Below, one piece after another: positions 932 to 62,486 of a stretch of 64,000 bases of DNA. The notes beneath the pieces are model-generated. The model had not been told where the DNA came from. It searched no databases and saw only the letters and a program-made list of their open reading frames with translations. How positions within the stretch are numbered: the stretch's first letter is position 1; every line of letters starts with the position of its first letter. Position numbers and translations under genes: made by a program. Source of the stretch: Sulfurimonas hongkongensis (lineage in GTDB: Bacteria; Campylobacterota; Campylobacteria; Campylobacterales; Sulfurimonadaceae); contig NZ_AUPZ01000010.1 of NCBI RefSeq assembly GCF_000445475.1, positions 1-64,000 on the forward strand, in the 5' to 3' direction.

Positions 932-1047
932 AAAACTAATAAAGCTAGATAGGAGTGTATGAAAAAAGGGGACTTTGGAGACTATAAGCCACTTGAGTGA
1001 TGGAATAAGTGAACTTAGAGACTATGAAATAACTATAGTTTTCTTCC
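932..1047 (+). pseudogene. HigB/RelE-like addiction-module toxin, remnant
   Basis: Frame pieces read KTNKAR, an in-frame TAG, ECMKKGDFGDYKPL, and after a frameshift LSDGISELRDYEITIVF. This is the core of the COG3657 killer protein family (typically ..R..RL..GNFGD.KP.GDGVSELRI..G.GYRVYF). One stop and one frameshift inactivate it, and a family B repeat starts where the last beta strand should be, so the C-terminus is replaced by repeat sequence. Bases 755-931 may hold more of the same wreck, but I cannot assign them. Confidence 0.68.
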
Positions 1048-1134
1048 AGAAGTGGGACTTTTGGGAATGCTAACCAATGGCATTCTCCACTATGTGTCCC
1101 GCAAAAAGACGAGGCTAAAGCCTCACTTCCGAGG
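1047..1134 (-). repeat. Family B palindromic repeat, long form (copy B1)
   Basis: Read on the minus strand it runs GGAAGTGAGGCTTTAGCCTCG, a TTTTGCGGGAC block, CATAGTGGAGAATGCCATTG and a closing GTCCCACTTC. The end arms GAAGTG.. and ..CACTTC are inverted repeats, and GAGGCTTTAGCCTC is an inner palindrome. The same order occurs at 60376-60456 and, without the middle block, at 62429-62486. It has replaced the end of the toxin remnant. Confidence 0.8.
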
Positions 1135-4858: not shown

Positions 4859-4874
4859 CTTTACAGCTATAGTA

Positions 4875-5072
4875 ATTATCAAAAGAGATCCTGAATCAAG
4901 TTCAGGATGACGGTGGAGGAGTTTAAGATGACATCCCTCGCCGTCATTCCGTGCTTGACACGGAATCTCATTGGTTTTTCAAGAGATCCTGAATCAAAAC
5001 AAGAGAATCGCTTTTTGCTATGCAAAAATGTTTCTTTAGAGCTCAGGATGACAGTGGAGGAGTTTAAGATGA
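4875..5072 (-). repeat. Family A element, composite (copy A2)
   Basis: Two partial elements in the same orientation. The first (about 4875-4973) runs AAAAGAGATCCTGAATC, TTCAGGATGACGG, a linker TGGAGGAGTTTAAGATGAC and the palindrome CCGTGCTTGACACGG. The second (about 4977-5072) starts again with AGAGATCCTGAATC, holds the inner TTTTTGCTATGCAAAAA palindrome and ends with the same GTGGAGGAGTTTAAGATGA linker. The shared linker shows that one was copied from the other locally. Confidence 0.8.
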
Positions 5073-5078
5073 TGGTTT

Positions 5079-6619: not shown

Positions 6620-6654
6620 TGCCTGCCTTTTTAGCTCTATATATATTTGAATGC

Positions 6655-6838
6655 TTTATAAACTAGATTCCGTGTCAAGCACGGAATGACGGCGAGGGAT
6701 GTCATCCTGAACTCCTCCACCGTCATCCTGAACTCCTCCACCGTCATCCTGAACTCTAAAGAAACATTTTTGCATAGCAAAAAGCGATTCTCTTGTTTTG
6801 ATTCAGGATCTCTTTTGATAATTCTCCAAAGCACTCAT
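6655..6838 (+). repeat. Family A element (copy A3)
   Basis: TTTATAAACTA plus the GATTCCGTGTCAAG palindrome, three CGTCATCCTGAAC units with the local linker TCCTCCAC, the inner TTTTTGCATAGCAAAAA palindrome, GATTCAGGATCTCTTTTG and a decayed right tip (CCAAAGCACTCA). The right tip supplies the TGA stop of the glycosyltransferase that ends at 6835. Confidence 0.85.
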
Positions 6839-7539
6839 CTCTTTAAAAAAATTCTCACACTATGTAGTAGTGAGATAATAAAAAAGACTATATTCATATT
6901 TTTTAGTATTATCTTATTTCTACTAAAGAGTTTTTCCCAACTTCTATCCTGATTGCTCTCATATGAAAACCCAGCTTTTGCAAAATAAACTAGATGCTCT
7001 GAATATACAGGTTGTAAGTTTCTTGTACACATTTTAGTCATTTGCTCAAAGTCTGCAACTATAGGATAGCTTATATCAAAGGGTATGAGTTCATCTCTTT
7101 TATAAAATATGCTTTGATGACAAGGTGTGTTATGAGTTAAGTAGATTTTAGTAAAAGGGTCTCTTTTTATTTTTTGTTGCTCCTCATTATAGTAGTAGCA
7201 GCTATTTGTAGTATCGAGGCTATTTAAAGAGTGTAAATCTAAAAAAATCAACCTATCCCCAGCATTTATAAAGTTTATCCACTCTCCACTAGCTCGCTCT
7301 ATCCCCTTGTTCATAGCATCATAAATCCCGCTATCTTTTTTGCTAACCCAATAATCTATAGCATCTTCATACTTCTTGATAATCTTCAAAGTACCATCAG
7401 TTGAGCCACCATCTATGATGATGTACTCTACATGCTCATAAGTCTGGTTTATAATGCTCAAGATAGTCTCTTCTAAGTGCTCTTCGCCATTGTAAACAAC
7501 AGTGATTATGCTTACTAAAGGTCTCTTTAAAATGTTCAT
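6835..7539 (-). CDS. Family 2 glycosyltransferase (WcaA-like)
   Basis: The N-terminal half is a clear GT2 domain: SIITVVYNGEEHLEETI, DGGSTDGT at about 46-53, SGIYDAMNKGI, and INAGD as the metal-site variant. This set is typical of colanic-acid and capsule enzymes that move hexoses. It is 234 aa, near the lower limit for the family. The stop codon comes from the end of repeat A3, so the last residues may have been altered by the insertion. ATGA overlap with the GT4 gene upstream makes it part of one minus-strand transcription unit. Confidence 0.88.
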   Translation of the reverse strand: MNILKRPLVSIITVVYNGEEHLEETILSIINQTYEHVEYIIIDGGSTDGTLKIIKKYEDAIDYWVSKKDSGIYDAMNKGIERASGEWINFINAGDRLIFLDLHSLNSLDTTNSCYYYNEEQQKIKRDPFTKIYLTHNTPCHQSIFYKRDELIPFDISYPIVADFEQMTKMCTRNLQPVYSEHLVYFAKAGFSYESNQDRSWEKLFSRNKIILKNMNIVFFIISLLHSVRIFLKR

Positions 7540-9706: not shown

Positions 9707-9878
9707 TTCTCTGCTCTTTTTATGAGATATTTAAATTTCAATACTACAAAGTTTCAAATCTTCATACTTCTAATGTTCTATTTTAACACTTTATAATTAA
9801 AAATAGAAGGTTATTATGATATTATGAAGTTCAATAATTGCTTGTTTTTATAAAGCAGTTGAGTATTATGAATAATTA

Positions 9879-10054
9879 TTGAGTTGGATCCTGAATCAAA
9901 ACAAGAGAATCGCTTTTTGCTATGCAAAAATGTTTCTTTAGAGTTCAGGATGACGGAGAATGTTCAGGATGACGGAGAATGTTCGGGATGACGCGTGTCC
10001 CGTCATTCCGTGCTTGACACGGAATCTAGTTTATAGACTAATCAGAGGGTTCAA
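9879..10054 (-). repeat. Family A element (copy A4)
   Basis: Reads on the plus strand GGATCCTGAATCAAAACAAG, the inner TTTTTGCTATGCAAAAA, three TTCAGGATGACGGAGAATG-type units, CCCGTCATTCCGTGCTTGAC and GGAATCTAGTTTATAGACTA, then ATCAGAGGGTTCAA (left tip). It fills most of the 371-bp gap before the DUF2254 gene. The remaining bases, 9707-9878, are AT-rich and hold nothing I can name. Confidence 0.85.
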
Positions 10055-10077
10055 TTAATACCTTGAGGGTTTAAAAA

Positions 10078-11412
10078 ATGAAAATACAAATTCTTAAATA
10101 TTGGGACAGTATTCGTTCTAGTTTTTGGTTTATCCCAATTACTATGGCTATAGGGTCTATGGTATTGGCATTTGTAGCTCTCTCTATTGATATATCAATG
10201 ACGGAGTGGTTGCGTAGTGCTTTTAACTGGAGATTTACCGGTAGTGTGGAGGGTTCTAGTGCTGTGCTTGGAACTATCGCTGGCTCAATGATTACTATCA
10301 CCGGTGTAGTGTTTTCAATGACACTAGTCGCACTCTCTCTTGCTTCATCTCAGTTTGGTCCTCGTATGCTTCGTAACTTTATGCGAGACACTACAACGCA
10401 GGTGGTTCTTGGTACATTTATTGCCACTTTCATCTACTCTTTAATCGTTTTGCGTAATATACGACACACAGAAGAAACTATCGTTTTCACCCCACATTTT
10501 TCTGTTTCACTCGGTGTCACACTCGCGGTAGTAAGCTTAGGAGTGCTGATTTATTTTATCCATCATGTTTCTATTTCTGTTCAGGCTAACGAAATTGTGA
10601 TGCGGGTAAGTAAAGAGTTACTTGAGGGCATTGAAAGCTTGTTTTTAGAAGAAAAAGAAGCCGAGCAAGACAGTACTGAGATGCCAAGAGGATCCTATGA
10701 TAATGGCTTTTTAAAAGTGTTTGAGCGGGATGCTTATCCTGTTGATGCCACCCAAGATGGATATCTACAGTTTATTGATTATGATGCTTTGTTGACGTTG
10801 GCAAAGCAAGAAAATGTTGTCTTGGAGCTAAAGAGACGACCAGGACACTACGCTGTAGCTGGACGACCACTAGTGATGGTTTGGCCTGCTGAGCGAGTGG
10901 ATGACCAACTTATAGTTCAACTTATTGCCGCATTTACTCTAGGCAATCAGCGAATCCCACGCCAAGATATAGAGTGTACAATAAACCAATTGGTAGAAAT
11001 CGCGGTACGAGCTCTTTCTCCGGGGATAAACGACCCATTTACGGCGATGACATGTGTAGATAGACTAGGCTCTGCACTATCTCGTTTGAGCGAGCGTAAG
11101 ATGCCATCACCCTATCGTTATGATGATGAGGGTGAACTTTGGTTGATTACACCTGTTGTAACTTTTTCAGCAATTACGGACGCAGCATTTGACCAAATCA
11201 GACAATATGCTCACTCAAGTGCTGCAGTAACTATTCGCTTGCTAGAGACGATTGCTGTAGTTGTAGAGTCTGCAAATCGCGCAGAAGATAGGGCTGCTCT
11301 TTTGCGTCATGCGGAGATGATTACGAAAGGAGCGCATAAAGGTTTGTTTGAAGCACAAGATCGCCAAGAGGTTGAGCAACGCTACGGAGTGATAATTCAG
11401 CTACTAAAGTGA
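10078..11412 (+). CDS. DUF2254 family membrane protein
   Basis: 444 aa. Four predicted membrane helices lie in residues 15-175 (FWFIPITMAIGSMVLAFVAL; MITITGVVFSMTLVALSLAS; VVLGTFIATFIYSLIV; VSLGVTLAVVSLGVLIYFI). A soluble C-terminal domain holds the family's SPGINDPFTAMTCVDRL motif. The function of DUF2254 is unknown. GAGGG lies 8 bp before the ATG. The gene is clearly richer in G and C (codons such as CGT, GCG, CGG and CGA are frequent) than its neighbours and is flanked by oppositely oriented family A repeats, which suggests acquisition from elsewhere. Confidence 0.9.
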   Translation: MKIQILKYWDSIRSSFWFIPITMAIGSMVLAFVALSIDISMTEWLRSAFNWRFTGSVEGSSAVLGTIAGSMITITGVVFSMTLVALSLASSQFGPRMLRNFMRDTTTQVVLGTFIATFIYSLIVLRNIRHTEETIVFTPHFSVSLGVTLAVVSLGVLIYFIHHVSISVQANEIVMRVSKELLEGIESLFLEEKEAEQDSTEMPRGSYDNGFLKVFERDAYPVDATQDGYLQFIDYDALLTLAKQENVVLELKRRPGHYAVAGRPLVMVWPAERVDDQLIVQLIAAFTLGNQRIPRQDIECTINQLVEIAVRALSPGINDPFTAMTCVDRLGSALSRLSERKMPSPYRYDDEGELWLITPVVTFSAITDAAFDQIRQYAHSSAAVTIRLLETIAVVVESANRAEDRAALLRHAEMITKGAHKGLFEAQDRQEVEQRYGVIIQLLK

Positions 11413-11434
11413 TCCTCTTTTGACATTTCAATGA

Positions 11435-11603
11435 GATTCCGTGTCAAGCACGGAATGACGATGAGAAACATCATCTTGAACATTCTCCGTCATCCTGAAC
11501 ATTCTCCGTCATCCTGAACTCTAAAGAAACATTTTTGCATAGTAAAAAGCGATTCTCTTGTTTTGATTCAGGATCTCTTTTGATAATTGCTCAGAGCATT
11601 CAA
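11435..11603 (+). repeat. Family A element (copy A5)
   Basis: The GATTCCGTGTCAAG palindrome, two or three CATCCTGAACATTCTCCGT units (19 bp, the same linker as A4 and A7), the inner TTTTTGCATAGTAAAAA palindrome (one base off), GATTCAGGATCTCTTTTG and the right tip ATTGCTCAGAGCATTCAA. It is oriented opposite to A4. Confidence 0.85.
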
Positions 11604-11676
11604 ATATGAACAATATAAAAAACAAATTAAGTTTCTTCTTGTATAATCTGCGTATATGGTTACATAAGGATTGATA

Positions 11677-12783
11677 ATGTTAAACTCTCTCTTCTTTCGT
11701 ATGCGTTTAGTACACTACATAGGAATAATCTTACTTATAATAAATGGAACATTGTTTACAGACAACATAATCGGACAGATCATTCAGTATGTCATAGCAC
11801 TTGTTATACTTGTGCATGATTTGGATGAGAAATACAACGGTGTTGATATGACAAAGTCTCTTATAGATCAGCTTGAAAATCTTGAACATGGAGAGAGGAT
11901 TGTTTTAAAAAACAGCTATAACTCAGAACTAAGTAAAGCTGCAGCAAATATGAACAGATTTCAGACAATATTTCTACAAGCTCAAGACACAAATGAAAAA
12001 TCACATACGATAGAACATCTTGTAAAGAAGATAAATAGTGATTATGAAAACACAAATGAAAGTATGATCAACGAGAGAGAGCTTCTTGCCAAGGTAGTAT
12101 CCATAGGCGAAAAATTGAAGATGGTTTTGAGTAATGATTTAGTCGATGCTTCAAGTTCAAAAGAAAATATAATTGAAGTTAGCAAAAATTTAAATAGCAT
12201 TAAAAATGAGATCTCAAGCATAGTGGAACAGCTTCAAGAAGCTTCAAGTACACAAAATATATTGGCTAATAATCTAAGTAGAGTTTCAGAAGATGCAAGC
12301 CAAGTTAAAGAGGTTATTTTAGTAATTGCGGACATCGCAGATCAGACGAACCTTTTAGCCCTTAACGCTGCTATTGAAGCAGCTCGTGCAGGTGAGCATG
12401 GACGCGGATTCGCCGTAGTGGCTGATGAAGTTAGAAAATTAGCCGAGAGAACACAAAAATCACTTACTGAGATAAATGCGACTATTAATGTAGTAAGCCA
12501 ATCCATAAGTGATACAAGCCAGCAGATGAACATGAGTAGCCAAACAGTAGAATCATTAGCAGAACTCTCTACTGATGCATCAAAACGCATGCAGGGCATT
12601 AGCAACGCCATTGGCAATGGAGTCACTTTAGCAGAGGCAACGGTAGATAGCTATACCCAAAACGCTAAAACTACTGAAGAGATTATAGAAAATATTACAA
12701 AAATCGATGAACTTTCAAAAAGAAGCAATGAGAGTGTTAAGGTGATAAAAGAGAGCGTTGAAGAGCTTAGTCAGGTGATTTGA
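11677..12783 (+). CDS. Methyl-accepting chemotaxis protein, no periplasmic domain
   Basis: Two membrane helices (about 9-26 and 32-47) with only a few residues between them, so there is no extracellular ligand domain. A helical cytoplasmic linker (60-200) is followed by the signalling hairpin with the tip [20 protein letters not shown] at about 225-244. It should report to CheA/CheW and sense something in the membrane or cytoplasm. I chose the ATG at 11677 over the TTG at 11671 because AAGGA sits 7 bp upstream of it. A TATAAT box lies at about 11642-11647. Confidence 0.92.
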
Positions 12784-22642: not shown

Positions 22643-22723
22643 GATTGTTCCTTTTTTAGATACTTAGTCGTGAATACGAGATTGAGTACTATATAATATT
22701 GATTTGAATGTCAATACAAAGTA

Positions 22724-22942
22724 TTGAACCCTCTGATTAATTTATAAACTAGATTCCGTGTCAAGCACGGAATGACGGGACACGCGTCATCCTGAACAAA
22801 CAAACCGTCACTCTGAACAAACAAACCGTCATCCTGAACAAACAAACCGCCATCCTGAACAAACAAACCGTCATCCTGAACAAACAAACCGTCATCCTGA
22901 ACTTGATTCAGGATCTACCTTAATAATTGTTCAGAGCACTCT
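22724..22942 (+). repeat. Family A element (copy A6), complete with both tips
   Basis: Left tip TTGAACCCTCTGATTAAT, then TTATAAACTA, the GATTCCGTGTCAAG palindrome, and about six CATCCTGAAC units with the local linker AAACAAACCGT (21-bp period). CTTGATTCAGGATCT follows and AATTGTTCAGAGCACTC is the right tip. The tips are imperfect inverted repeats of each other. This is the best copy for defining the element. Confidence 0.88.
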
Positions 22943-22977
22943 ATTATAATTTGACATAAGTATTACAGGAGTGAAAA

Positions 22978-23345: not shown

Positions 23346-24218
23346 ATTTTACTCGCTCATATCTATCTCTCTATCGCTACGATTTTAATTGCTAGCTCTT
23401 TTTTGGTCTCAGCAGAACTCTCAGGAGTCATTGACTCCATCTCTATCACTTTGTACAGATTTCTTATAGCGCTCATCGTTTTATCTCTGATTTTTATAAA
23501 AAAGGAGTATCGCCAAAAACTTGCTTCTACCTTTTGGAGAGGCACTGTTGTAGGTGTTTTTTACGCTTTGTACTTTATTGGCATGTTTAAAGCGCTTGAG
23601 ACAACCACTGTTTTAAACATAAGCACTCTTTATACTCTGATCCCTTTTATTACTGCGATTTTATGTATCTTCTTCTTTAAAGAGAAGATAAGTAAAAAGC
23701 AACTCTTGGTTTATCTTGTTGCTATGGTTGGCACTAGCATTGTTGTTTTTAAAGCAGATATAGCTCTGTTTTTGAGTTTTTCACTTAACTCTGGAGATGC
23801 GATATTTTTACTAGCTTCTATCTCCATGGCACTTTATTCTATATTTTTAAAGGCACTACATAGAAAAGGTGACAAGGCTTTGGTCTTTGTTTTTAGTACA
23901 CTCTTAGGTGGATCTATAGCAATGTTTTTATCGATGCAAATTTTAAATATCCCTCTTGAGTGGCACAAAATAGAGGGTGAACTCTTTTACTATGTACTTT
24001 ACCTAGCACTTGCTACTACCATTTTAACACTTTTTTTATACCAAAAAAGTGCAGCACTGCTTGGTTCTAAAAAACTTATGGCGTATCTCTATTTGAGTCC
24101 AGCTATAGTTGCGATAATGTCGTACTTTTGGCACGACACATCTATAAGTTTTAGTGTTTTTGTAGGGATTTTAATCTCGCTTTTTGCTACTGTTATTTTA
24201 CTAAAAGAAAAAGTATAA
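23346..24218 (+). CDS. EamA/DMT-family transporter
   Basis: About ten membrane helices in two EamA halves, a layout usual for metabolite exporters (about 290 aa). The first helix is ILLAHIYLSIATILIASSFL. It would be lost if translation began at the TTG at 23403, yet it is coding-like and required for the fold. AAAGG at 23334-23338 points to ATT at 23343 or 23346 as start, a rare codon, or to a mutated start. YRFLIALIVLSLIFIKKE and LGSKKLMAYLYLSPAIVAIMSYFWHD are family-typical. Substrate unknown. Confidence 0.8.
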   Translation: MLLAHIYLSIATILIASSFLVSAELSGVIDSISITLYRFLIALIVLSLIFIKKEYRQKLASTFWRGTVVGVFYALYFIGMFKALETTTVLNISTLYTLIPFITAILCIFFFKEKISKKQLLVYLVAMVGTSIVVFKADIALFLSFSLNSGDAIFLLASISMALYSIFLKALHRKGDKALVFVFSTLLGGSIAMFLSMQILNIPLEWHKIEGELFYYVLYLALATTILTLFLYQKSAALLGSKKLMAYLYLSPAIVAIMSYFWHDTSISFSVFVGILISLFATVILLKEKV

Positions 24219-24220
24219 AA

Positions 24221-24610
24221 TTGAGTGCTTTGAGCAATCATCAAAAGAGATCCTGAATCAAGTTCAGGATGACGGAGAATGTTCAGGATGACGGAGAATG
24301 TTCAGGATGACGGAGAATGTTCAGGATGACGGAGAATGTTCAGGATGACGGAGAATGTTCAGGATGATGGAGAATGTTCAGGATGACGGAGAATGTTCAG
24401 GATGACGGAAAATGTTCAGGATGATGTTTCTCATTGTCATTCCGTGCTTGACACGGAATCTCGCTGGAATCTCATGAGATCCTCCAATCAAAACAAGAGA
24501 ATCGCTTTTTGCTATGCAAAAATGTTTCTTTAGAGTTCAGGATGACAGGCTGATTGTTCAGGATGACAGGCTGATTGTTCAGGATGACGCATCTTTTGTC
24601 ATTCCAAGTA
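24221..24610 (-). repeat. Family A element, largest (copy A7) with a nine-unit tandem array
   Basis: Starts with the tip TTGAGTGCTTTGAGCAATC, AAAAGAGATCCTGAATC, then about nine units of TTCAGGATGACGGAGAATG (19 bp) from 24259 to 24430. The palindrome CCGTGCTTGACACGG follows, then a second partial element with the inner TTTTTGCTATGCAAAAA and two units with another linker (TTCAGGATGACAGGCTGATTG). It fills nearly the whole 475-bp gap between the EamA gene and ppsA. Confidence 0.88.
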
Positions 24611-30252: not shown

Positions 30253-31536
30253 ATGAAAAAAATACTACTATCAAGCACGCTTTGTGCAGTTATGGCTTTT
30301 GGTGCGGCAGATGTGCTGCCAAGTGAAAAAAGAACTTTTGCTCAGTCAAAGTTTATACCAGATATCTCTTTAATTATGGATATGTCTTATGTAAATAGAA
30401 GCGTAGATGACAATGAGGCCCAACATCTTGAGGTGCCAGGGGTTGCTCATGGACTCTTAGGCTCTCACTCCCACGGTTCAGACAATCACGCAACTTACAA
30501 TGCAAGCAATGGCTTTAACCTAAACTATGCAGAGCTTGTTCTCTCAAGCTCTGTTGATCCATTTTTTACTATGGATGGAGTTTTTCACTTTAGCGAAAAT
30601 GGAGTAGAGATAGAAGAGCTTTTCTTTACATCTACAGCTTTGGGCTATGGTACAAGAGTAAAGGGTGGAAAGTTTAACTCAAACTTTGGTTATCTAAATG
30701 AGCAACACCATCACTACTGGGATTTTGCAGATATGCCTCTCGTTTATGAGTCTTTTTTAGGGATGCATGGTATCAATGAAAAAGGAGTCCAGCTACAATG
30801 GACAGCTCCAACCTCTACTTACTTGATGCTAGGAGCCGAGATCCTTCAAGGCGAAAATGAGCAGATGTTTGGAAATGAGGAGATAGACTTAACCAAGATA
30901 AACGCTACTGCATCTTTAGAAAAAACAAGTGCAGCAGATGCGCCATCACTCTTTGTTACCTATGCTAAAACATCTTTTGATATCCAAGACACTACAATCT
31001 TAGCAGGACTCTCTTATGCTTGGGGAGAATCAAGAATAGACCATACTGAAGATGAAGAGAGCCCTCACGCAATTAGTGCTGACTCTAAGATATATGGAGC
31101 TGACTTGGTTATCAAGCACTATTTTGACTCTTACAGCTCCCTAAAGTGGCAAAGTGAGTGGATGATGCGTGATATGGATGGAATTTTGTATGCAAATTCG
31201 GGAGGAGCTTTTAAAGCCTCAGATCTGACTAAAAAGCAAGCAGGACTATACTCTCAACTTGTTTATGCGTATAATCAAAACTGGAAGGTTGGCGCTAGAT
31301 ATGATACTATCTATCAAAATGATGTTAAAGTAAATGGACAAGATAGAAATATGCCAACTAACATGGACAAGTACTCTGCAATGCTAGAGTACTCAACAAG
31401 TGAGTTTGCAAGATTTAGGCTACAGTATGACCATAATAACGCTCTGTTCAATGAAGATAATGTTAGGCAAAATATAGATACTATTATCTTTCAAGTAAAC
31501 ATCTCCATAGGTGCTCACGGAGCGCATAGTTTTTAA
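30253..31536 (+). CDS. His-rich outer-membrane beta-barrel, probable zinc-uptake protein
   Basis: 427 aa with a Sec signal (MKKILLSSTLCAVMAFGAA), then beta-strand alternation to a C-terminal strand. HGLLGSHSHGSDNHATYN near residue 80 and EQHHHYWDF near 155 are exposed His clusters fit for zinc. It belongs to the set often annotated as zinc-regulated outer-membrane receptor, but it has no TonB box or plug domain, so it is more porin-like. AGGA lies 5 bp before the ATG. It sits just before znuA, separated by repeat A8. Confidence 0.78.
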   Translation: MKKILLSSTLCAVMAFGAADVLPSEKRTFAQSKFIPDISLIMDMSYVNRSVDDNEAQHLEVPGVAHGLLGSHSHGSDNHATYNASNGFNLNYAELVLSSSVDPFFTMDGVFHFSENGVEIEELFFTSTALGYGTRVKGGKFNSNFGYLNEQHHHYWDFADMPLVYESFLGMHGINEKGVQLQWTAPTSTYLMLGAEILQGENEQMFGNEEIDLTKINATASLEKTSAADAPSLFVTYAKTSFDIQDTTILAGLSYAWGESRIDHTEDEESPHAISADSKIYGADLVIKHYFDSYSSLKWQSEWMMRDMDGILYANSGGAFKASDLTKKQAGLYSQLVYAYNQNWKVGARYDTIYQNDVKVNGQDRNMPTNMDKYSAMLEYSTSEFARFRLQYDHNNALFNEDNVRQNIDTIIFQVNISIGAHGAHSF

Positions 31537-31538
31537 TT

Positions 31539-31660
31539 TAATCCTCTGATTAAGTTATAAACTAGATTCCGTGTCAAGCACGGAATGACGGTAAGGCCAT
31601 TGAGTCCAATACGGTAAGGCCATTGAGTCCAATACGGTAAGGCCATTGAGGCCAATGAAG
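31539..31660 (+). repeat. Family A left half fused to a 23-bp tandem repeat (copy A8)
   Basis: Left tip AATCCTCTGATTAAG, TTATAAACTA and the GATTCCGTGTCAAG palindrome, then three copies of GGTAAGGCCATTGAGTCCAA plus TAC (23-bp period, from 31590) in place of the usual CATCCTGAAC units. The right half is absent. GCCTTGCTCTGCAAGGC (31675-31691) is a separate small hairpin just before the znuA ribosome binding site. Confidence 0.8.
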
Positions 31661-36495: not shown

Positions 36496-36536
36496 TGGGG
36501 TTTTTTACTCCTGACTTTTTTGTAGCTCTAACAAGA

Positions 36537-36756
36537 GATTCCGTGTCAAGCACGGAATGACGGTGGGGAGGCATCATCCTGAGATAGATTCATCATCATC
36601 CTGAGCTAGATTCATCATCATCCTGAACTTGATTCATCGTCATCCTGAACTTGATTCATCGTCATCCTGAGCCAGACTCATCGTTATCCTAAATTCTAAA
36701 GAAACATTTTTGCATAGCAAAAAGCGATTCTATTGTCTTGATTGGGGATCTATTTT
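36537..36756 (+). repeat. Family A element (copy A9)
   Basis: The GATTCCGTGTCAAG palindrome, then five or six CATCCTGA units with the local linker YWAGATTCATCRT (21-22 bp period), AAATTCTAAAGAAACATTTTT, the inner TTTTTGCATAGCAAAAA palindrome and a decayed GATTGGGGATCT end. It fills most of the 271-bp gap before the MFS gene. Confidence 0.82.
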
Positions 36757-36766
36757 AGTTTTACAA

Positions 36767-37879
36767 CTAGATTTTACTGCTAGTTAGAGTTTTTCTGCTC
36801 CATAGATAGATAAACCAAGATGCCAAAAGTGCTATAAAAGTTGAACTTAAAAAGAGGTATCTTGGGAACAGCTCATAAACATATCCAGCATACAAAGCAC
36901 CCACAAACCCACCTAAACCATAAGTGATGCCAGAGAAGAACTGTTGCGCTAGAGCCTTGTGCTTATAGAGATAAAACAAGTAGCTGATGGCCGCGGAGTG
37001 AAAGAGCGCAAAGCTAAGAGCGTGGAGTAGTTGAGATAAGAAGAGCATCACAAGATTTTGTGGAAACAAGAATAGTAAAAACCATCTCAGAGCAGTTGCA
37101 AAAGTTGTGATTTTTAAGATCAAAAGCAGATTTTTACGCAAAAATCTAGCTTGATAATAGAGCATAACTATTTCTGCTAGTACACCAAAACTCCAAAGAT
37201 ATATGGTCATATCTAAAGAGATGCCATGATCTGTTTCATAGATAGTAAAAAAGTTGTAAAAGGGACCAAAACTAACTTGCATAAGCGTTAGCCCCAGCCA
37301 TAACTTCCAGTCAGTCAAAAGGTTTATGTCATTTGTTTGTTGTGCATATTCTTTTGTATTTGTAGAAGTGCTCCTAGCTATGACAAAAGCCACAAGAGCA
37401 GTTAAAGAAGCAAATACAAGCAAATAATTTAGGGCAATCTGTGGGGAACTCAAGTACTTAACCAAAACAAGTGCAACAAAGATAAAACCAATAGAGCCAA
37501 AGAGCCTAATCTTTCCATAGCGCTCTTTTTTCATAGTATCTAGGGAGATAACTTCAACAAAAGGTAAAATAACACTAAGCCCCATTCCAAGACCAATATT
37601 TGAGAACAAGAGTCCATAAAAAGTATCTATGCAAAAATAAAAAGAGATGCTACTTACTAACATGATAAAGATAGCAAGATTAAATGTTTTGTTGTTTAGT
37701 TTTAAACCTTTAACAAAGGCAAAGGGGAGCAAAAATCTAACAAGAGGCCCAGCTGCAAAAATAATACCTATTTCACTTGGACTGTAGCTTAGTATAGAGA
37801 GAACTTTAGGTAAAAATATAATATATACTCCAATAATTGCAAAGTATAAAAAGTAAAATAGAGAGAGTATAAATTGCAT
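36767..37879 (-). CDS. MFS transporter (HcaT/LacY-like)
   Basis: 370 aa, about 12 helices, in the PF12832 MFS_1_like branch, which includes the phenylpropionate and nucleoside permeases. FLPKVLSILSYSPSEIGIIFA forms the first loop and second helix, and KERYGKIRLFGSIGFI is the helix 4 region typical of the group. AAGGAACG precedes the ATG by about 8 bp. It is transcribed divergently from the PAS gene. Substrate unknown. Confidence 0.82.
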   Translation of the reverse strand: MQFILSLFYFLYFAIIGVYIIFLPKVLSILSYSPSEIGIIFAAGPLVRFLLPFAFVKGLKLNNKTFNLAIFIMLVSSISFYFCIDTFYGLLFSNIGLGMGLSVILPFVEVISLDTMKKERYGKIRLFGSIGFIFVALVLVKYLSSPQIALNYLLVFASLTALVAFVIARSTSTNTKEYAQQTNDINLLTDWKLWLGLTLMQVSFGPFYNFFTIYETDHGISLDMTIYLWSFGVLAEIVMLYYQARFLRKNLLLILKITTFATALRWFLLFLFPQNLVMLFLSQLLHALSFALFHSAAISYLFYLYKHKALAQQFFSGITYGLGGFVGALYAGYVYELFPRYLFLSSTFIALLASWFIYLWSRKTLTSSKI

Positions 37880-38474: not shown

Positions 38475-39882
38475 TAGAACCATATTACTATTTGTCGCAC
38501 TCCTTGGTGTGGCTATTTACGCTTTGATAATATCTGAGTACATCCTAGCTGGAGTTATGATAGCTACTCTAGTGATAGGAGCTTTTGCTCCTTGGAGTAA
38601 ATCTGATGAATCCTATGATGTGATCGTAGAAGATATTCAAAGAGTTTTAAAAAATGCAGCTCTTGGTAATCTTGAAGATAGAGTAACAAACATTCCTGAT
38701 AATAATTCTTCAATTTCAAAAAGAGCTTGGGCTTTAAACGATGTCCTAGATCAACTCGAAGCGTTTATGAGAGACACTAAGACAACGATAGAAAATGCTT
38801 CTGTTGGAAAGACTTATAGAAAAACTTATTCAGCAGGCTTGCATGGGATATTTCGTTCTACTTCAAGTAGCTTAAATGTTGCAATAACTTCAATAGCAAA
38901 GGGTTATGAGACAAAGATAAGAGGAGAGTTAGCACAAAAACTAAGCACACTAGGTGGTGGTATTAGTGCTGGTCTTAATGTTATACAAGAGGATATAAAT
39001 ACTTCTCAAGTAGATGCGAATGAGATAGTTGAAGTTGCTCATAAAACCGCAGAAGAGTCATCAAAAAGCCTTACAAGTGTTGTCGATATCGGTCAAAGAC
39101 TTAGTTCTCTTTTAGAGCTCATCGGCTCAAGTCATGAGGGTATTGTTAGTCTTGAGGGTCGCTCAAAGGAGATCTCAGAGGTTGTGCGTCTTATAAAAGA
39201 TATAGCAGACCAAACAAATTTGCTAGCCCTAAATGCGGCTATTGAGGCTGCTCGTGCAGGTGAGCATGGACGAGGTTTTGCCGTAGTTGCAGATGAGGTA
39301 AGGAAACTTGCCGAGAGAACTCAAAAAGCAACAACTGAGATAGAGATAAATATCTCAACCTTGCAACAAGATGCAAATGATATGAGAGTAAATTCTGATA
39401 ATATTTCACAAATTGCACAAGACTCAACCGATGTTATACATGAGTTTAAGGGAACTTTCACAGAGCTAAATTCTCTAGCTGAACACTCATCGGCATTAGC
39501 AGTTAAGATTCAAAATCGTCTCTTTACAACTCTAGTTAAAGTTGATCACATCATCTTTAAGTCAAATGCTTACTCAACTGTACTTGAATCAGACAAAACA
39601 AGAACTTTTGCAGATCATAAAAATTGTCGCATGGGTAAATGGTATGCACAAACAGGAGAGGAGAGATTTGGGCATACTAAAGCATTTAAAGAGATGGAAG
39701 CACCTCATGCTCAGGTCCATGATTCAGTCTTTAAAAATTTAGAGTTTGTTAAAAATGGGACAACACTGAAATTTGACAACCCTAAAGCTATTTTAGAAAA
39801 CTTTGAGACTATGGAAGAAGCATCTGAAGAGCTCTACACTAAGCTTGACAATATGATAGAAGAGTTTTATGAGAAAGAGTAA
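38446..39882 (+). CDS. Methyl-accepting chemotaxis protein with CZB domain (CetA-like partner)
   Basis: 478 aa. Two membrane helices close together (about 14-32 and 35-49), a HAMP-like linker ([11 protein letters not shown]), the signalling hairpin with tip [20 protein letters not shown] at about 248-267, and a C-terminal chemoreceptor zinc-binding (CZB) domain: [31 protein letters not shown] (the His/Cys/His/His zinc set). CZB domains sense zinc or oxidants such as HOCl in other bacteria. With the overlapping PAS gene it forms a two-protein receptor that could join redox and zinc inputs. Confidence 0.92.
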
Positions 39883-41641: not shown

Positions 41642-43627
41642 ATGTCCACAATTAGTTTAAGTAAACAGATAAGTATAGGATTTGCAATTATCCTATTAGC
41701 AATGGTCATTATGGGAATAATCGCCATTAGTAGTATGTCTAGTGCTATTAGTAACTCAGAAAGGCTCAGTGATGAGTATATCGCAGAAGTTGATGTTGCT
41801 ACATCTTTAGAGAGAAACTTTGCAAAAGCAAGAATCGATACCTCTAAACTTCTATATTCAGAAGATTTAGCATTTAAAAAAGAAGCAGATAAAACTATGG
41901 TGCTTATGTTTGAAAAACTAGATGAACTTAAAAATATTTCTAGTAAATACCCAAGCTTAACAGTTTTGGCAAAAGACCTTCCAATAATAGAATCAAGACT
42001 AAATGAATACAAAGTTGATGCTCAAGAGGTTGAGCGACTCTTTACTCAAAAAGAAGATATACAAAAAGAGCTTGATGAAAAAGCAAAAGTTTTTACTCAG
42101 CAGACAGAAAAAATGTTTGAAAATCAAAAAAAGCAGATTGAGCAAGCAAGAAAAACAGATAAAAATATGCAAGTACAAGTAGAGAGACTTTTAATGGCTA
42201 ATGATGCGTACGATCGAGGTCAAGAACTTCGTTTAGCTAGCTTTAGATCTGCTGCTATGAACGATATTACTATCTTACAAGAAGCACTTAAAGATTTTGA
42301 TAGGGTTTTAGAACCTATACAAAAGCTTCGCAAAGGTGCAAAGGATATGGAGTCTTATAAAAAAGTTGAAGCAGCTACCATCTCTTATAAAGATAATCTT
42401 GAAGCTATTGTAAAAATAAATATTGAAGTTGAGTCAATCAAAAAGAAAATTTCAAAAACTGCACTAGAAGCTGTTAAGATTGTAGATGAAGTTAGCAATG
42501 CGGGATTTGATGGTACGAAAAACATGGCAAAAGAGAGTATAGATGCCTTAAATGGTTCAAAATCTATGATGATCTTAATTTTGATTATTGCTATTATGGT
42601 TAGTTTAGGCGTCGCTTGGTATATAATAACCTCAGGAATCAATAAGCCACTGCGTAAGTTTAAAGATACGATGTTAAAGATTACAAATGAGCATAACTTA
42701 ACCATCAAAGTTGATACAGATGCACCAGCAGAGATTCGTGATATAGCGGTTAGTTTTAATGAGTTTACCCATCAACTCCACGATCTCATTGATAACACTA
42801 AACGCTCTTCAAATGAAAATGCATCTATAGCACATGAACTCTCTACAACTGCTCTAGGCGTTGGAGGAAATGTTGAAAAATCAGTTGTTGTTACTCAAGA
42901 AGCAAACCAAAGAGCGTTGCAGATTGAAGAAGAGATACAGTCTTCTATAGTAGACGCCCAAGAGAGCAAAAAAGAGATAATTAGAGCAAATGAGAACTTA
43001 AATACTGCGCGCAATGAGATGAAAGCAATGAACGCAAAAGTACAAGAAACAGCACATACAGAAGTTGAGCTCTCACACAAGATGACAACACTCTCTCAGG
43101 ATGCAAATGAAGTAAAAAATGTTTTAGAAGTTATTAGCGATATTGCAGACCAAACAAATCTTTTAGCGCTTAATGCCGCTATAGAGGCTGCTCGTGCAGG
43201 CGAGCATGGTCGTGGTTTTGCAGTTGTTGCTGATGAAGTTAGAAAGTTGGCTGAGAGAACTCAAAAATCATTAGTAGAGATCAATGCAACTATAAATGTA
43301 ATAGTGCAGTCAATCCTTGAAGCAAGTACACAAATAAGCGACAATTCAGAAGATATTCAAGCTCTAGCAACATCTGCTTCTGAAGTTGAGGCAAAAATAA
43401 ACGAGAGTGTCTCTATTGTAAACCTTGCAGTTGTGGCTAATGATAAAACTGTACGCGATTTTGAATCAACTGGTAAAAATGTTGAAGATATAGCTCAAAA
43501 AGTCTCTTCTATTAATGAGATCTCCATCACAAATGCTAGAAATGTTGAGGAGATAGCAGCAGCAGCTGAACATCTAAACAATATGACAGAAGAGCTTAAT
43601 AATAAACTCGAAATCTTTAGGTCTTAA
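41642..43627 (+). CDS. Methyl-accepting chemotaxis protein with helical periplasmic domain
   Basis: 661 aa from the ATG at 41642, which has GAGGG 7 bp upstream. The in-frame TTG at 41594 is rejected because the TATAAT box lies after it. Membrane helix about 10-30, an all-helical periplasmic sensor of about 270 residues (HBM/4HB-like, rich in Lys/Glu heptads), a second membrane helix (about 308-330), HAMP, and the signalling hairpin with tip [20 protein letters not shown]. Helical HBM sensors bind organic acids in other bacteria; the ligand here is unknown. Confidence 0.92.
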
Positions 43628-50238: not shown

Positions 50239-51360
50239 ATGTTTTTTAAAGATACAAAAAAGTTAGAAGCAGACTTAAGAGCTAAAGATCTAGAGATAAA
50301 GAGTTTAAAAGAAGCATTGCAAAAGGCTGATGATAGAGTAATAGAATTACAAAAAGGCATAAGTAAAGATAGTGAGAGTGAAGTTATGAATGACCTTATA
50401 AAAGCACTAACTACGGGCCTAACAAACTCATGCGAACACGATTTAAAAGAGTTACAGTCAAACTTGGCTGATAATCTATCAAGCTTACAAGAGATAGAGC
50501 ATGAGAGCTGTAGCAATGAAGAAGATATGAGTGAGTGTTCTACTGATGTAGTTGAGATGACAGGTACGATGAACTCACTTTTAGAGCATATTGCAAGTAC
50601 GTTTGATCAAGTAAGTACGCTCAACTCAAATGTAGAGAACATTTCAGAAGTTATCACTCTCATAAAAGACATCTCAGACCAAACAAATCTACTAGCTCTA
50701 AATGCTGCCATTGAAGCAGCACGTGCAGGCGAGCATGGTCGTGGTTTTGCAGTTGTTGCTGATGAAGTTAGAAAACTAGCAGAGAGAACTCAAAAGGCTA
50801 CAAGCGAAGTTGAGATAACAGTCCAAAGCCTAAAACAAAATACTCAAGAAGTTCATGAACACTCTAAGTCTATGGAAGAGTTGAGTCAAAGTGCGAACAA
50901 CCAGATGATAGTATTTCACCAAAAAACGGACGATTTAACCATAGCATCAAGAAAGATAGAAGAAGAGACTATAAATATCACGTATGAAATCTTTGTAGTT
51001 TTAACTAAACTAGACCATCTGCTCTTTAAAGCAAATGGTTATAAAACAATCTTTGATGGAAAAACAAGTGCTGAATTTGTTAGTGACAAAGAGTGCAGAC
51101 TTGGCAAATGGTATCTAGAGGGTATTGGAAAAGAGAAGTTTGGAAAAGCAGAGAGTTACGCTAAACTAGCTGAACCTCACAAAGATGTACATGATAACAT
51201 ACACAAAGCTATAGAGTGTGTGAAAAACGGCACCTGCACACAAGAAGCGGAGAATGTTAAAACATACTTCCAAAATGCCCAAGAAGCATCTAAATTAGTT
51301 ATGAAAATCTTAGATGATTTGCTTGTGGAAGAAAAAACTTATAGAGTAGGCAAGAACTAG
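50239..51360 (+). CDS. Soluble chemoreceptor with C-terminal CZB domain
   Basis: 373 aa with no membrane helix. The N-terminal coiled coil ([20 protein letters not shown]) is followed by the signalling hairpin (tip [20 protein letters not shown] at about 150-169) and a CZB domain: [35 protein letters not shown] (zinc ligands His, Cys, His, His). It is a cytoplasmic zinc- or oxidant-responsive receptor, similar to Helicobacter TlpD. I chose the ATG at 50239 over the GTG at 50233 because AGGTAGGTG lies at the right distance from it. Confidence 0.92.
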
Positions 51361-54791: not shown

Positions 54792-56382
54792 AACTCTTGA
54801 ATTGATCTATTGTAGATTGTAGAGAGTGAGCTATTTTTACTAATCTTTCTAAGTCATTTTCTATACTTGAGATACTAGTATTGTTTGCAGTTGAGAGGAC
54901 ATCTATCTTGTGAATCTCTTCTATAATCTCTTCAACACTTTTTGAGATGACTATAGTGTCACGAGCGGATTTATCTGCAACCTTAGTTGATGTATCTATC
55001 GCATTAGAAGTTGTAGAGATCTTCTGCTCAACATCATTGGAGATACTAAGAAGACTCTCTATACTTTTTGCATTTACATGCATCTTATCGCTTACATCAT
55101 TGATGGATTGAACGATAGTTCCTACGCTAATATCTATCTCTGTTAGTGACTTCTGAGTTCTCTCAGCTAGTTTTCTTACCTCATCTGCAACTACTGCAAA
55201 ACCTCGCCCATGCTCACCTGCTCGAGCTGCTTCAATAGCAGCATTAAGAGCTAGTAGGTTTGTTTGCTCAGCTATCTCTTTTATAACATTTAGCACATCT
55301 TTTACTTGATCAGCATCACTTCTAAGTCCTACAAGTTCGCTAGATAGTTCATTCTCTGTCTCAACAAAAGAGTTTACTTCTTTGCCTAGAACTGATAAAG
55401 ATTCTCTAGCAGTTCCAAGTTCATCATGTGCCTCTTTAACATTTTTTTGAGTCTCTTCTGAGGCTTGCATGTTTTCAATAAGAAGATCTTTTATAGATAG
55501 ACTTTTTGTGTTTGTGTTAGCTACAATAGCCCGCTCTTGAGCTGTGCTCTCACGGATCACATGGCTAGACTGCTCAATTTCAGATGCAATGGAGGTGTTT
55601 TTTTCACCAAGAGATTTTATCTCGTTAATAGTGCTTTGAACCATCTCTATAAATTTGTTCACCTCATCTGCAGTCTCTCCAAACTCATCTTCATTTCTAT
55701 GGCTTAGCCTTTTAGTTAAGTCTTTATCTCCGCCAACTAGCTCTGAGATGCGCTCTTTTAAGTTTGATAGAGGTCCAAAAATCTCTCTTTTGAAAAATAT
55801 ACTCGCAGCAATGGTAAATAAAACAGCACCAATTATGAGCGCAACTAAAAGAGTAGTCTCTGTAGCTGCATTTTGTGCATCGTTTTTATCGAGTGAGACA
55901 ACTAAATCAACTGCACCTAAGACATAACCCTCTTCTATATTGTAGTGACAGGTGAGACATTTTTGCTCAGCTATTACAGGTTTTATAAGGCGAATCGTGT
56001 GATGACCATCTTCATTTGTTTCTATAACTCTGTTGTTTTTACTGCTAATAACTTCTCTAACAGTAGCATCTTTAGTAAACTCTTCACCTGGGGCATAAAC
56101 ATCTATAACCGCTTGCGATTTAGCTACAACTAAGCTCTCTATGCCCTCTATGTTTCTTGCATCCTCAATAGCATCTTCTACAATTTTAGGATCACCCATC
56201 ATCATACTAGTAGTCATAGTCTGTAGTATTGACTCGCTTAGCATCGCAAGGGACTCTTTTGCTGTTTTTTCCGAGAGTTGTTGAAGAGTTGTAGATAAGT
56301 AGTAAGTTATACCAAATAGCCCAAGGACACTTAGGGCTACAATGGAAGTTATAACTTTAGATTTGACAGTTTTTAGCATCAT
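54790..56382 (-). CDS. Chemoreceptor with a CxxCH (heme c-like) periplasmic sensor
   Basis: 530 aa from the ATG at 56382, which follows AGGA. Membrane helix about 10-31, a periplasmic domain (about 35-175) with [20 protein letters not shown] (CxxCH near residues 142-146) and [10 protein letters not shown], a second helix (about 178-197), HAMP, and the hairpin with tip [21 protein letters not shown] CxxCH motif outside the membrane is the covalent heme c attachment site, as in DUF3365/Tll0287-like sensors, so this may be a redox or gas (NO, O2) receptor. Heme binding is inferred from the motif alone. Confidence 0.88.
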
Positions 56383-57892: not shown

Positions 57893-58682
57893 ATCGCACC
57901 GCCAAACCATCAAAGCTGGTTCCATAAAGCTCTTCTAGTCTAGCCTCATTATAAAACTCATCATATTTTTCATAGTAAGAGGCACTAAAATCTTTTAAAA
58001 AAAGCGTTGGCGAGTTGATGTAAGATGCAAGCTCTAAATCATGTGTGATTAGGATGATTTGGTGATACTCTTTTAAGCCTTTTATATGTTTGGCTATTGT
58101 TTTTGCATTCTTTGGATCAAGGTTTGCAGTTGGCTCATCAAGGATAATGATTCTGCTCTGTGCTACAAGTGAAGATGCCAAGGAGACAAGCTGTGCTTCA
58201 CCAGAACTAAGAGAGCTAAGAGGGTGAGAGGCAAGGTGTGAGATATTTAAAAACTCTAGGGTGTTTTTAGCTATCTTCTTATCATTGCTAGAGTAGTCAA
58301 AAAAACTGTCTTTGTAGGTAAATCTACTCAAAAGCACAAACTCTTCTACGCTTATAAACTCATCATAAACTTCTAGTTTAGTAGGTATATAAGTAAGCAG
58401 TTTCGCTCTTTGCTTTAGAGACAACTCTTTAATGTTTCGCCCATCTATATAAATCTCTCCATCATATTGGGTAAGCCCACAAATAGCTCTTGCAAGTGTA
58501 CTTTTTCCACTACCATTTGCCCCTAAGATATTTAGATGCCCATCTATTTTAAGTGAAATATTATCTAGTATAACTTTATCATGATATTTAATGCTTAGTG
58601 AGTCTAGTTTTATCATCTCTTTAAGTTTACTTTCACACTCCGCATCAGTATGGTCTATATTTTTAAAAGTCTCTTCAAGCAT
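57885..58682 (-). CDS. btuD: ABC transporter ATPase, vitamin B12 type
   Basis: 265 aa. Walker A GANGSGKST at about 54-62, signature LSSGEAQLV, Walker B RIIILDEPTANLDP, and switch His in ITHDLEL. It starts 8 bp inside the cobC gene (ATGCTTGA); the first 23 residues before MIKLDSLSIKY are extra and acidic. It powers the permease next to it. The family also includes FecE and FhuC, so the B12 assignment rests on the operon. Confidence 0.87.
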   Translation of the reverse strand: MLEETFKNIDHTDAECESKLKEMIKLDSLSIKYHDKVILDNISLKIDGHLNILGANGSGKSTLARAICGLTQYDGEIYIDGRNIKELSLKQRAKLLTYIPTKLEVYDEFISVEEFVLLSRFTYKDSFFDYSSNDKKIAKNTLEFLNISHLASHPLSSLSSGEAQLVSLASSLVAQSRIIILDEPTANLDPKNAKTIAKHIKGLKEYHQIILITHDLELASYINSPTLFLKDFSASYYEKYDEFYNEARLEELYGTSFDGLAVRYD

Positions 58683-59235
58683 GATTTTTATCTTTTTTAT
58701 CTACTATCTTATCATATGAAACAAAGGATGCGTAAGGCACACAGAGACAAAAGGCCTCTTCTAGGCTTATGCCTTTTAGTAGATGCAAAAATGTTTTTAT
58801 GACTCCGCTGTGAGTAACTACTAAAACATTCTCTTTTTTTAGTGCTGGGAGATACTCGAAAAAAAACTTTTCAACTCTTGAGATAAACTCCTCTATAGGT
58901 TCGCCACCAAGTGCATCTGTCCACTGTTTGAAGTTTATATACTTTAAGTTTGTAGAAATCTCATCAAAACTCATGCCTTCATATTCGCCCCATGACTTCT
59001 CTCTTAGCTCTTTAGTGTAGATGGCATTATCGCCCTTTATAAACTCTTTTAAAGTCTCTTTTGCTCTTTTTAAATCTGAGCAATATATAGCATCAAACTC
59101 AGACGCCTTAAAGTGCTTTTCTAGCTCTTTGGCATCTGCATAACCTTTGGAAGATAGGCCAATATCTATGTGACCGTTATAGCATCCTATATATTTTTCC
59201 TCAACTTCTGCATGGCGAACTAAAGTGATAGTCAT
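58675..59235 (-). CDS. cobC: Histidine phosphatase, alpha-ribazole phosphatase type
   Basis: 186 aa of the phosphoglycerate-mutase-like superfamily. LVRHAEVEEKYIGCYNGHID carries the phosphorylated His8 in RHAE (RHGE in most members), CSDLKRAKET is the second Arg site, WGEYEGM the third, and VVTHSGVIKTFLH the last His. CobC removes the phosphate from alpha-ribazole-5'-phosphate or from adenosylcobalamin phosphate in the last steps of B12 assembly. It lies 4 bp over the cobS stop, in the proper pathway context. Confidence 0.85.
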   Translation of the reverse strand: MTITLVRHAEVEEKYIGCYNGHIDIGLSSKGYADAKELEKHFKASEFDAIYCSDLKRAKETLKEFIKGDNAIYTKELREKSWGEYEGMSFDEISTNLKYINFKQWTDALGGEPIEEFISRVEKFFFEYLPALKKENVLVVTHSGVIKTFLHLLKGISLEEAFCLCVPYASFVSYDKIVDKKDKNHA

Positions 59236-59954
59236 GAAGCGATGCCAAGTAAGATGGCATTTAGTAGGATAAGTTCAGTTACTTCTATAGTAAAACCGTA
59301 GATATCTCCACTAAAACCACCATATCTCTTTACAAAAAAAGATTTGATAACAAACAAAACAAACAAACTTAAAACAAACAAACCAAGCGTTTGGATGCTA
59401 AGAAGTGCTACATAGATAAAAGCCATGAAGGCTTGAGAGCTTTTTAGTTCCTCTTTTGCTAAAGTTCCCATGCCATTTTGAGAGATATAGGGAAAAAGAT
59501 AGATGGCTAAAACAGCGTTAAAACGAGAAAGAAGAAGAACTACAGGCAGAAGATAAAAAGCATCAAAGACAGATAAAGATGAAGCTTTTAGGATTAAAAA
59601 AGTAGCAGTAAAAATCATACCCATTCCACCAGTATTTGGATCTTTCATAACTTCTATGGCTTTTTCTTTTGAGACAAAAAGCCCATCTATGGTGTCACTT
59701 AATCCATCTAGATGCAAGGCTCCTGTGAGGATAACCCAAAGAGTAAAGATGATGATGCCTAGATGCAAGTCTGGTAAATGTCCATCTAAAAGTGCGTGAG
59801 CGCCCCATAAAATGAGACCTAGTAAAAAACCAACAAGAGGGTAAAACAAAACTGCATAACCGTTGATGCCTCTGTTAAAATCGTGAACTTTGAAAAAGGG
59901 AACACTTGTAAGCATTGAGACAGCAAGGGAGAAACCTTTAAAAAAGTTTTTCAT
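59232..59954 (-). CDS. cobS: Adenosylcobinamide-GDP ribazoletransferase
   Basis: 240 aa from the ATG at 59954, chosen because it overlaps cobU by ATGA and matches the usual start (MKNFFKGFSLAVSMLTSVPF). Six or so membrane helices. The family motif LHLDGLSDTIDGLF (Asp residues for Mg and substrate) lies at about 80-93, and DPNTGGMGMIF is the second conserved piece. It joins alpha-ribazole to adenosylcobinamide-GDP at the membrane. Confidence 0.92.
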   Translation of the reverse strand: MKNFFKGFSLAVSMLTSVPFFKVHDFNRGINGYAVLFYPLVGFLLGLILWGAHALLDGHLPDLHLGIIIFTLWVILTGALHLDGLSDTIDGLFVSKEKAIEVMKDPNTGGMGMIFTATFLILKASSLSVFDAFYLLPVVLLLSRFNAVLAIYLFPYISQNGMGTLAKEELKSSQAFMAFIYVALLSIQTLGLFVLSLFVLFVIKSFFVKRYGGFSGDIYGFTIEVTELILLNAILLGIAS

Positions 59955-60529
59955 TTTATCCTCGTAGAGATGCCAGCAATGGTATGGTAAACCTCGTCGC
60001 ATCTGCTTGCTATGAGTTGGGACAATTTCCCGCTTGCATCTATAAAATCGCGTGCTAGTTTGTTATCAGGTATAACTGAGCATCCAACATCATTTATAAC
60101 AAAGACTACTCTTTGCTCAAGTTGTAAAATTTGCTCAATCTCCTTTTGCATATCTTCAAAGTTAAAGCCATGATAAAACATATTGTTTATCCACATGCTA
60201 ACACACTCAACTAACACAGGGTTTTTGTTAGTTTTAATGGCTTCAAAAATCTTAAGAGGCTCTTCTATAGTTACAAAGTCATCGCCTCTACTAAGTTTAT
60301 GAGCATCTATGCGTTCTTTCATGCCTGCATCTATAAACTCTGTTGTAGCAAGATATATAGGTTTGTTGGCATTTGGAGGTGAGGCTTTAGCCTCGCTTAT
60401 TTGCGGTACACATAGTGGAGAATGCCATTGGTTAGCGTTGGCTGAAGTCTCACTTTTGATATTTAGTATATAGTTTTGGGCGTTTATAGATTTGCCACTT
60501 TTTATACCACCGATAAATAGAGTTTTCAT
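59951..60529 (-). CDS. cobU: Adenosylcobinamide kinase/guanylyltransferase with a repeat-encoded insert
   Basis: 192 aa. P-loop GGIKSGKS at 7-14, YLATTEF, the guanylylated His in ERIDAHKLSR at 77, and ECVSMWINNMF. In Salmonella CobU (181 aa) the active His is at 46, so here it is displaced by about 31 residues. The extra stretch, residues 26-55 (SETSANANQWHSPLCVPQIS and EAKASPPNAN), is encoded by family B repeat copy B2 at 60376-60456, inserted in frame between the P-loop helix and the next strand. The rest of the gene is intact, so the enzyme is probably still made. It phosphorylates and guanylylates cobinamide during B12 salvage. Confidence 0.9.
   Translation of the reverse strand: MKTLFIGGIKSGKSINAQNYILNIKSETSANANQWHSPLCVPQISEAKASPPNANKPIYLATTEFIDAGMKERIDAHKLSRGDDFVTIEEPLKIFEAIKTNKNPVLVECVSMWINNMFYHGFNFEDMQKEIEQILQLEQRVVFVINDVGCSVIPDNKLARDFIDASGKLSQLIASRCDEVYHTIAGISTRIK
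60376..60456 (+). repeat. Family B repeat inside cobU (copy B2)
   Basis: GGAGGTGAGGCTTTAGCCTCG, TTGCGGTACACATAGTGGAG, AATGCCATTGGTTAGCGTTG and GAAGTCTCACTTTTG. It matches copy B1 (read on the opposite strand) along its whole length, including the non-palindromic middle CATAGTGGAGAATGCCATTG. Its length keeps the cobU frame open and it has no stop in that frame. Confidence 0.88.
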
Positions 60530-62428: not shown

Positions 62429-62486
62429 TCTCGGAAGTGAGGCTTCAGCCTCGCCCTTTTTGCGGGACTAAAGTCCCACTTCCCAA
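62429..62486 (+). repeat. Family B repeat, short form (copy B3)
   Basis: CGGAAGTGAGGCTTCAGCCT, CGCCCTTTTTGCGGGAC, TAAAGTCCCACTTCCC. It is the same as B1/B2 but without the CATAGTGGAGAATGCCATTG middle. It lies between the btuB-like and btuF-like genes. I see no B12-box (GCCACTG) of a cobalamin riboswitch in this gap. Confidence 0.82.

Follow-up and report, generated by a model that had tools for sequence, protein, structure and literature searches.

The cobU gene of Sulfurimonas hongkongensis contains, in frame and free of stop codons, an 84-nt copy of a dispersed palindromic repeat, which encodes residues ~24-52 of the protein. This insert is very probably a copy of a short, non-autonomous REP-like element which forms a disordered loop in a functional enzyme and is carried along as a near-neutral passenger; its mobility mechanism, translation, the retained CobU activity and neutrality are the parts that we infer. 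The window, i.e., the whole stretch of 64,000 nt which was analysed, contains the following features of the cob cluster and the repeat family:

59951-60529, minus strand: cobU, adenosylcobinamide kinase / adenosylcobinamide-phosphate guanylyltransferase, 192 aa including the insert (PF02283, E = 2e-41)
60375-60458, minus strand: composite palindromic repeat copy in cobU, inverted arm pair plus nested core hairpin, in frame
60375-60396, plus strand: single repeat arm within the cobU copy, GGAGGTGAGGCTTTAGCCTCGC, one mismatch to the arm consensus
59232-60002, minus strand: cobS, cobalamin-5-phosphate synthase (PF02654, E = 6e-44), overlapping the 3' end of cobU
58675-59235, minus strand: histidine phosphatase family gene in cobC-like position, next in the cob cluster (PF00300, E = 9e-40)
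1047-1130, plus strand: second full composite copy (B1), intergenic, no long ORF across it
62433-62483, no strand assigned: bare outer element of 51 nt, inverted arm pair without the nested core hairpin, intergenic

The repeat is organized on three levels. The arm (consensus GGAAGTGRGRCTTYAGYCYCGC) has 22 nt: GGAA is followed by two half-stems, the first of 8 nt, which enclose a loop of 2 nt. Two inverted arms, with GGAA facing outward at each end, form the outer element of 50 nt, and in the composite of 83-84 nt a core hairpin (GGAATGCTAACCAATGGCATTCTCC) is nested in the loop of one arm. The commonest element lengths are 83, 84 and 50 nt; since most elements have 83 or 50 nt, i.e., 2 modulo 3, preservation of the reading frame acts as a filter and is not built in. 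The nesting can be seen at an orthologous site in the gene of a bifunctional aldolase/short-chain dehydrogenase (aldolase/SDR). In G192, a different species, this site is occupied by the bare outer element; S. hongkongensis has this element at identical codons, but with the core nested in its loop. The same contrast between both genomes is present in cobU.

Allowing up to three mismatches, 51 arm matches were found in the genome compared to 0 for a reversed-pattern control, hence the repeat occurs far beyond chance. Arm and core matches together give 52 sites, and the cobU copy has 24 DNA matches in the genome, itself counted. It had been described in an earlier note as nearly identical to B1; the match is real (E = 7e-22), but comprises 72 of 84 positions (86% identity), and B1 ends at 1130 instead of 1134. 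The RNA hairpin energy of the cobU copy is -21.3 kcal/mol, compared to -28 to -36 kcal/mol for most intergenic copies and -16.8 kcal/mol for one of them. This weaker hairpin could reflect simple ageing or coding-driven decay. Target-site duplications were not found in 37 copies, the flanks of which match for 2-9 nt about as shuffled pairs do.

Alignment to insert-free relatives gives a net gain of 28 codons (+84 nt) in CobU. That the copy is in frame and stop-free had been claimed before and was confirmed for the 192-aa ORF; the extra residues are indeed encoded by the repeat, but they number 28 net at ~24-52, not 30 at 26-55 as formerly stated. The Pfam CobU match starts at residue 54 and reaches 141.7 bits, above the curated cut-off of 27; this domain, the P-loop and the histidine assign the protein to CobU. 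P-loop residues and H77 are invariant across 28 aligned CobU sequences. As proposed earlier, residue 77 is the conserved histidine: it aligns with His46 of 1C9K, which is known as the guanylylated residue, and is found at position 49 in the insert-free relatives. The draft genome assembly (2.30 Mb, 28 contigs, reported 100% complete, 0.18% contamination) contains a single CobU match, and the second intact cobU considered in the earlier note was not found in it.

An AlphaFold2 model was calculated on a 28-sequence input (mean pLDDT 81). Residues 29-51, located between helix 13-29 and strand 58-61, have a pLDDT < 50, and the rest is mostly confident. The model reproduces the location suggested before, namely a loop between the P-loop helix and the next strand. 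Its best Foldseek matches are solved CobU structures (8YKC, TM 0.73-0.78). The CobU fold is predicted to be intact despite the insert; residues 29-51, which link helix 1 to the following strand, are predicted to be disordered, and the ~28 extra residues are probably floppy. We propose that a non-autonomous REP-like palindromic element, dispersed through a Sulfurimonas clade, landed in cobU between the codons of the P-loop helix and the next strand, and that the reading frame of the landed copy happened to be stop-free. At the protein surface, the resulting residues would form a loop distant from the catalytic residues; hence CobU would stay functional and the insertion could persist near-neutrally.

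Of the 151 genomes of the family, 77 have a CobU hit, as do 90 of the 135 in the genus. The insert is absent in 32 of 33 aligned CobU relatives from this family, in which helix 1 joins KPxYLATTEF (or equivalent) directly and which mostly have a length of 164-167 aa versus 192 aa; natural CobU length variation as the cause of the insert is thereby ruled out. The lone exception is G192 (L086), in which the insertion at the same spot consists of a bare outer element (GGAAGTGTGACTTCTGCCCTGCAAATAGGCGAGGCTAAAGCCTCACTTCC) and a further arm, and the inserted residues differ strongly from those of S. hongkongensis. No aligned relative has the same residues encoded by non-repeat DNA, the case raised against a repeat origin in the earlier note: 32 lack them, and the G192 insertion is also a repeat. 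Simple shared ancestry of the cobU insertion in S. hongkongensis and G192 was rejected, as neither tree gives such a grouping; the CobU tree does not separate S. hongkongensis, G192 and G087, and the MnmG tree pairs G192 with the insert-free G201 and S. hongkongensis with G173. CobU of G173 (G173:C42:28777-29193) is divergent and no match spans the insert there. This species is the nearest by MnmG (94%), yet its CobU is only 66% identical, which suggests, as far as sequence identities can tell, an exchange of cobU in the lineage of either S. hongkongensis or G173.

The earlier note had named a B12 salvage enzyme as host, which is correct for cobU, but at least three more conserved genes of the genome are hosts as well. 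In total, 4 of the 52 sites are in frame inside long conserved ORFs; besides cobU these are:

C15, L058:3203-4918: bifunctional aldolase/short-chain dehydrogenase (NF006197 above cut-off), insert GSGTFGDANQWHSPLCVPQTGEAEASLP
C7, L102:1501-1522: MnmG/GidA, repeat-derived GSEALASP
C10, L154:1501-1522: ManC, repeat-derived GEVKTSLP

Comparison with homologues identified the repeats in these three genes as insertions. A share of 4 in 52 at a coding density of 88%, measured within the window only, fits removal or avoidance of most coding insertions. The inserts of the unrelated proteins CobU and aldolase/SDR use a common peptide frame, ..ANQWHSPLCVPQ..(S/G)EA..AS.P, which is also that of GSEALASP in MnmG and GEVKTSLP in ManC; the copies of G165 and G201 use another strand or frame. 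Repeat-derived residues were also observed in PriA of G053 (L209:1501-1522) and in a UvrD-like helicase/nuclease of G201 (L127:1499-1566).

For all four genes, another species has an insertion in the same loop. Besides the cobU insertion of G192, these are insertions in the aldolase of G173 and G192 and one of opposite orientation in that of G165; in MnmG, G192 has an outer element plus an arm and G087 a different arm (GSETLVP), and in ManC, G173 has GSETSAS in opposite orientation. Some may be shared by descent, i.e., those in the aldolase of S. hongkongensis and G173 and those in MnmG of G087 and G192, the latter two having common junctions. Opposite orientations and different units point to several separate insertion events. 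The 10 nt ahead of the second arm in MnmG of G192 (L194:1485-1516), AGAAAACCTC, also precede the aldolase element; they were possibly copied along with the repeat or occur there by chance.

The aldolase linker forms a natural comparative series. Among 25 species, 15 have exactly 30 codons between fixed motifs and no repeat; in the remaining ten, the linker comprises 41-74 codons. Nine of these, with 43-74 codons, were expanded by two unrelated repeat families (four by the arm/core family, five by CGTC-type REPs), and the linker of 41 codons was assigned to neither. Repeats elsewhere in the aldolase genes of the 25 species were not found, nor did any of 500 shuffled linkers give a repeat hit. 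The CGTC-type REPs are in frame in the linkers of five other Sulfurimonas species (L064, L066, L068, L080, L083) and encode peptides like RHSVLDTES or HSELDSES. This series can be used to study which positions of a protein admit selfish DNA, if the inserts are neutral, and whether the places in which they survive are set by target choice or by selection. Loops and linkers of CobU, aldolase/SDR, MnmG and ManC might even be real landing sites, used repeatedly and across species by several unrelated repeat families due to a shared DNA target or replication feature and not by tolerance alone, with mobile repeats thus steadily supplying disordered linkers in a free-living genus; we consider this idea speculative and rather improbable.

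Between S. hongkongensis and G173, dN is 0.28 inside the aldolase insert and 0.06 in the rest of the gene, and dN/dS is 0.46 versus 0.25. By these substitution rates, the insert is weakly constrained filler. An alternative to a near-neutral passenger is that the insert of CobU gained a function, e.g., in regulation, localisation or partner binding, and that its amino acid sequence is under selection. The repeat-derived residues at the same CobU position in a different species, G192, and the peptide frame shared by most coding arm copies (GSE.../GEA...) would agree with a gained function. However, in the aldolase, which has the one comparable orthologous insert, substitutions accumulate faster in the inserted codons than elsewhere in the gene. 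Moreover, disorder is predicted for the CobU insert, and the residues inserted in G192 are quite different. All this makes selection on the peptide unlikely.

Lower still is the probability that cobU is a decaying pseudogene and the in-frame repeat the first step of its loss. About one third of the genus genomes are without a cobU hit, hence the gene is dispensable in the genus, but cobU of S. hongkongensis has neither a stop nor a frameshift, all invariant residues are kept and the cob gene neighbourhood is intact according to Pfam hits on the neighbours. Pairwise dN/dS values (Nei-Gojobori) outside the insert are 0.065-0.12, spanning also the time before the insertion, and according to these ratios this part of cobU is under purifying selection.

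Two other explanations are hardly credible. Removal of the repeat as an intervening sequence from mRNA or protein, giving a mature CobU without insert, could be imagined for a palindromic element, as excised elements are known in general, but no Rfam family matched anywhere in the whole window, the insert of only ~28 residues contains no splicing domain by Pfam, and an open frame, needless if the repeat were cut from the RNA, is kept. An assembly or binning artefact could be suspected in a draft of 28 contigs, as assemblers err at repeats, but the halves of cobU are collinear on either side of the 84-nt repeat, G192 independently has a repeat at the same cobU codons, and G173 has the aldolase insertion as well.

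Regarding the spread of the putative REP-like element, tagged inverted hairpins and the lack of a target duplication would be consistent with movement as single strands by Y1 transposases, as for REPs. The sole Y1 gene found in the genome is:

L208:1462-2847 (= G000:C21:8522-9904): gene of a Y1 (RAYT-like) protein, 461 aa

The protein consists of an N-terminal Y1 domain and a long C-terminal part without assigned family, has close relatives in ~25 genus genomes and matches the REP-associated transposase model weakly, below the cut-off. No arms were found beside this gene. No full-length relative of the Y1 gene was hit in the complete genome G087 (8 arms) or in G113 (27 arms), and many genomes, e.g., G064, G093 and G109, have the gene and zero arms. 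Thus, a RAYT was rejected as mobiliser, as the Y1 gene is neither adjacent to arms nor tracks arm number across the genus. At least one arm (≤ 2 mismatches) is present in 37 of 135 genus genomes, most genomes having zero; high counts were obtained for G192 (42), G000 (41), G190 (39) and G113 (27). An exact 21-nt piece of the core, searched in 84,980 species, was found only in Sulfurimonas MAGs and one MAG labelled Helicobacteraceae.

Rickettsia palindromic elements (RPEs) are dispersed palindromic repeats which occur intergenically and in frame in unrelated conserved genes, where they encode a peptide insert (PMC2229807, PMC10969869); for one guanylate kinase with an RPE, both synthesis and activity were demonstrated (PMC2229807, also reviewed in PMC10969869). 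The parallel to RPEs drawn in the earlier note is right when compared by description: the Sulfurimonas repeat is a dispersed multi-copy palindromic repeat with intergenic copies and in-frame copies in unrelated conserved genes, the orthologues of which exist without it. It differs in unit size (22/50/83 nt versus ~105-150 nt), in its nested hairpin design, in its coding share (4 of 52 sites versus nearly half of the RPEs in R. conorii) and in its occurrence in a free-living genus of the phylum Campylobacterota. The parallel is not the only one, as GTAG and CGTC REPs inside ORFs have already been listed for several species and phyla, including REPs at about the same site in recB of X. campestris and X. 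oryzae; CGTC and GTAG repeats were reported in Sulfurovum, and REPs nested in other palindromes were described (all PMC3733652). The Sulfurimonas repeat resembles these REPs, which are stem-loops of 20-40 nt, form inverted dimers and are mostly intergenic with few copies in ORFs (PMC3733652), but its arm starts with GGAAGTG, i.e., a GGAA head in place of a GTAG or CGTC tag. An inverted pair of tagged hairpin arms is shared with REPINs and BIMEs, which are mobilised by RAYTs, but neither linkage nor co-occurrence with a RAYT gene was observed. Classical MITEs (Correia/NEMIS, ERIC, QMITE1) are likewise small non-autonomous inverted-repeat elements for which in-frame gene fusion is possible, and the 37 copies lack the target-site duplication of DDE-type MITEs. 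The search of open-licence literature yielded no publication about protein-coding palindromic repeats of Sulfurimonas. In-frame palindromic repeats as such are already known; the Sulfurimonas case is a new one, extending protein-coding palindromic repeats to a free-living genus of Campylobacterota, and its particular value is a comparative series in which fixed protein loops received insertions repeatedly and from more than one repeat family. The cobU insert is a further example of a little-studied route from selfish DNA to protein.

The window also contains a second, unrelated palindromic family of the CGTC-REP type (CGTCATTCCGTGCTTGACACGGAATC and CGTCATCCTGAACTTGATTCAGGATC), some of it arranged in tandem at a spacing of 19, 21 or 22 nt, as well as diverged repeats of ~227 nt (D2 family):

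2388-2554, 4871-5076, 6637-6849, 9859-10065, 11406-11614, 22723-22954, 24216-24605, 31528-31591, 36508-36777: copies of the CGTC-REP type
12292-12518, 39160-39386, 43100-43326, 50629-50855, 55136-55317: D2 repeats

In an ORF scan of the window, no CGTC-type copy was found inside a long ORF. One ORF at a D2 repeat was read (11671-12783) and resembles a methyl-accepting chemotaxis protein, hence the D2 repeats are probably paralogous signalling domains.
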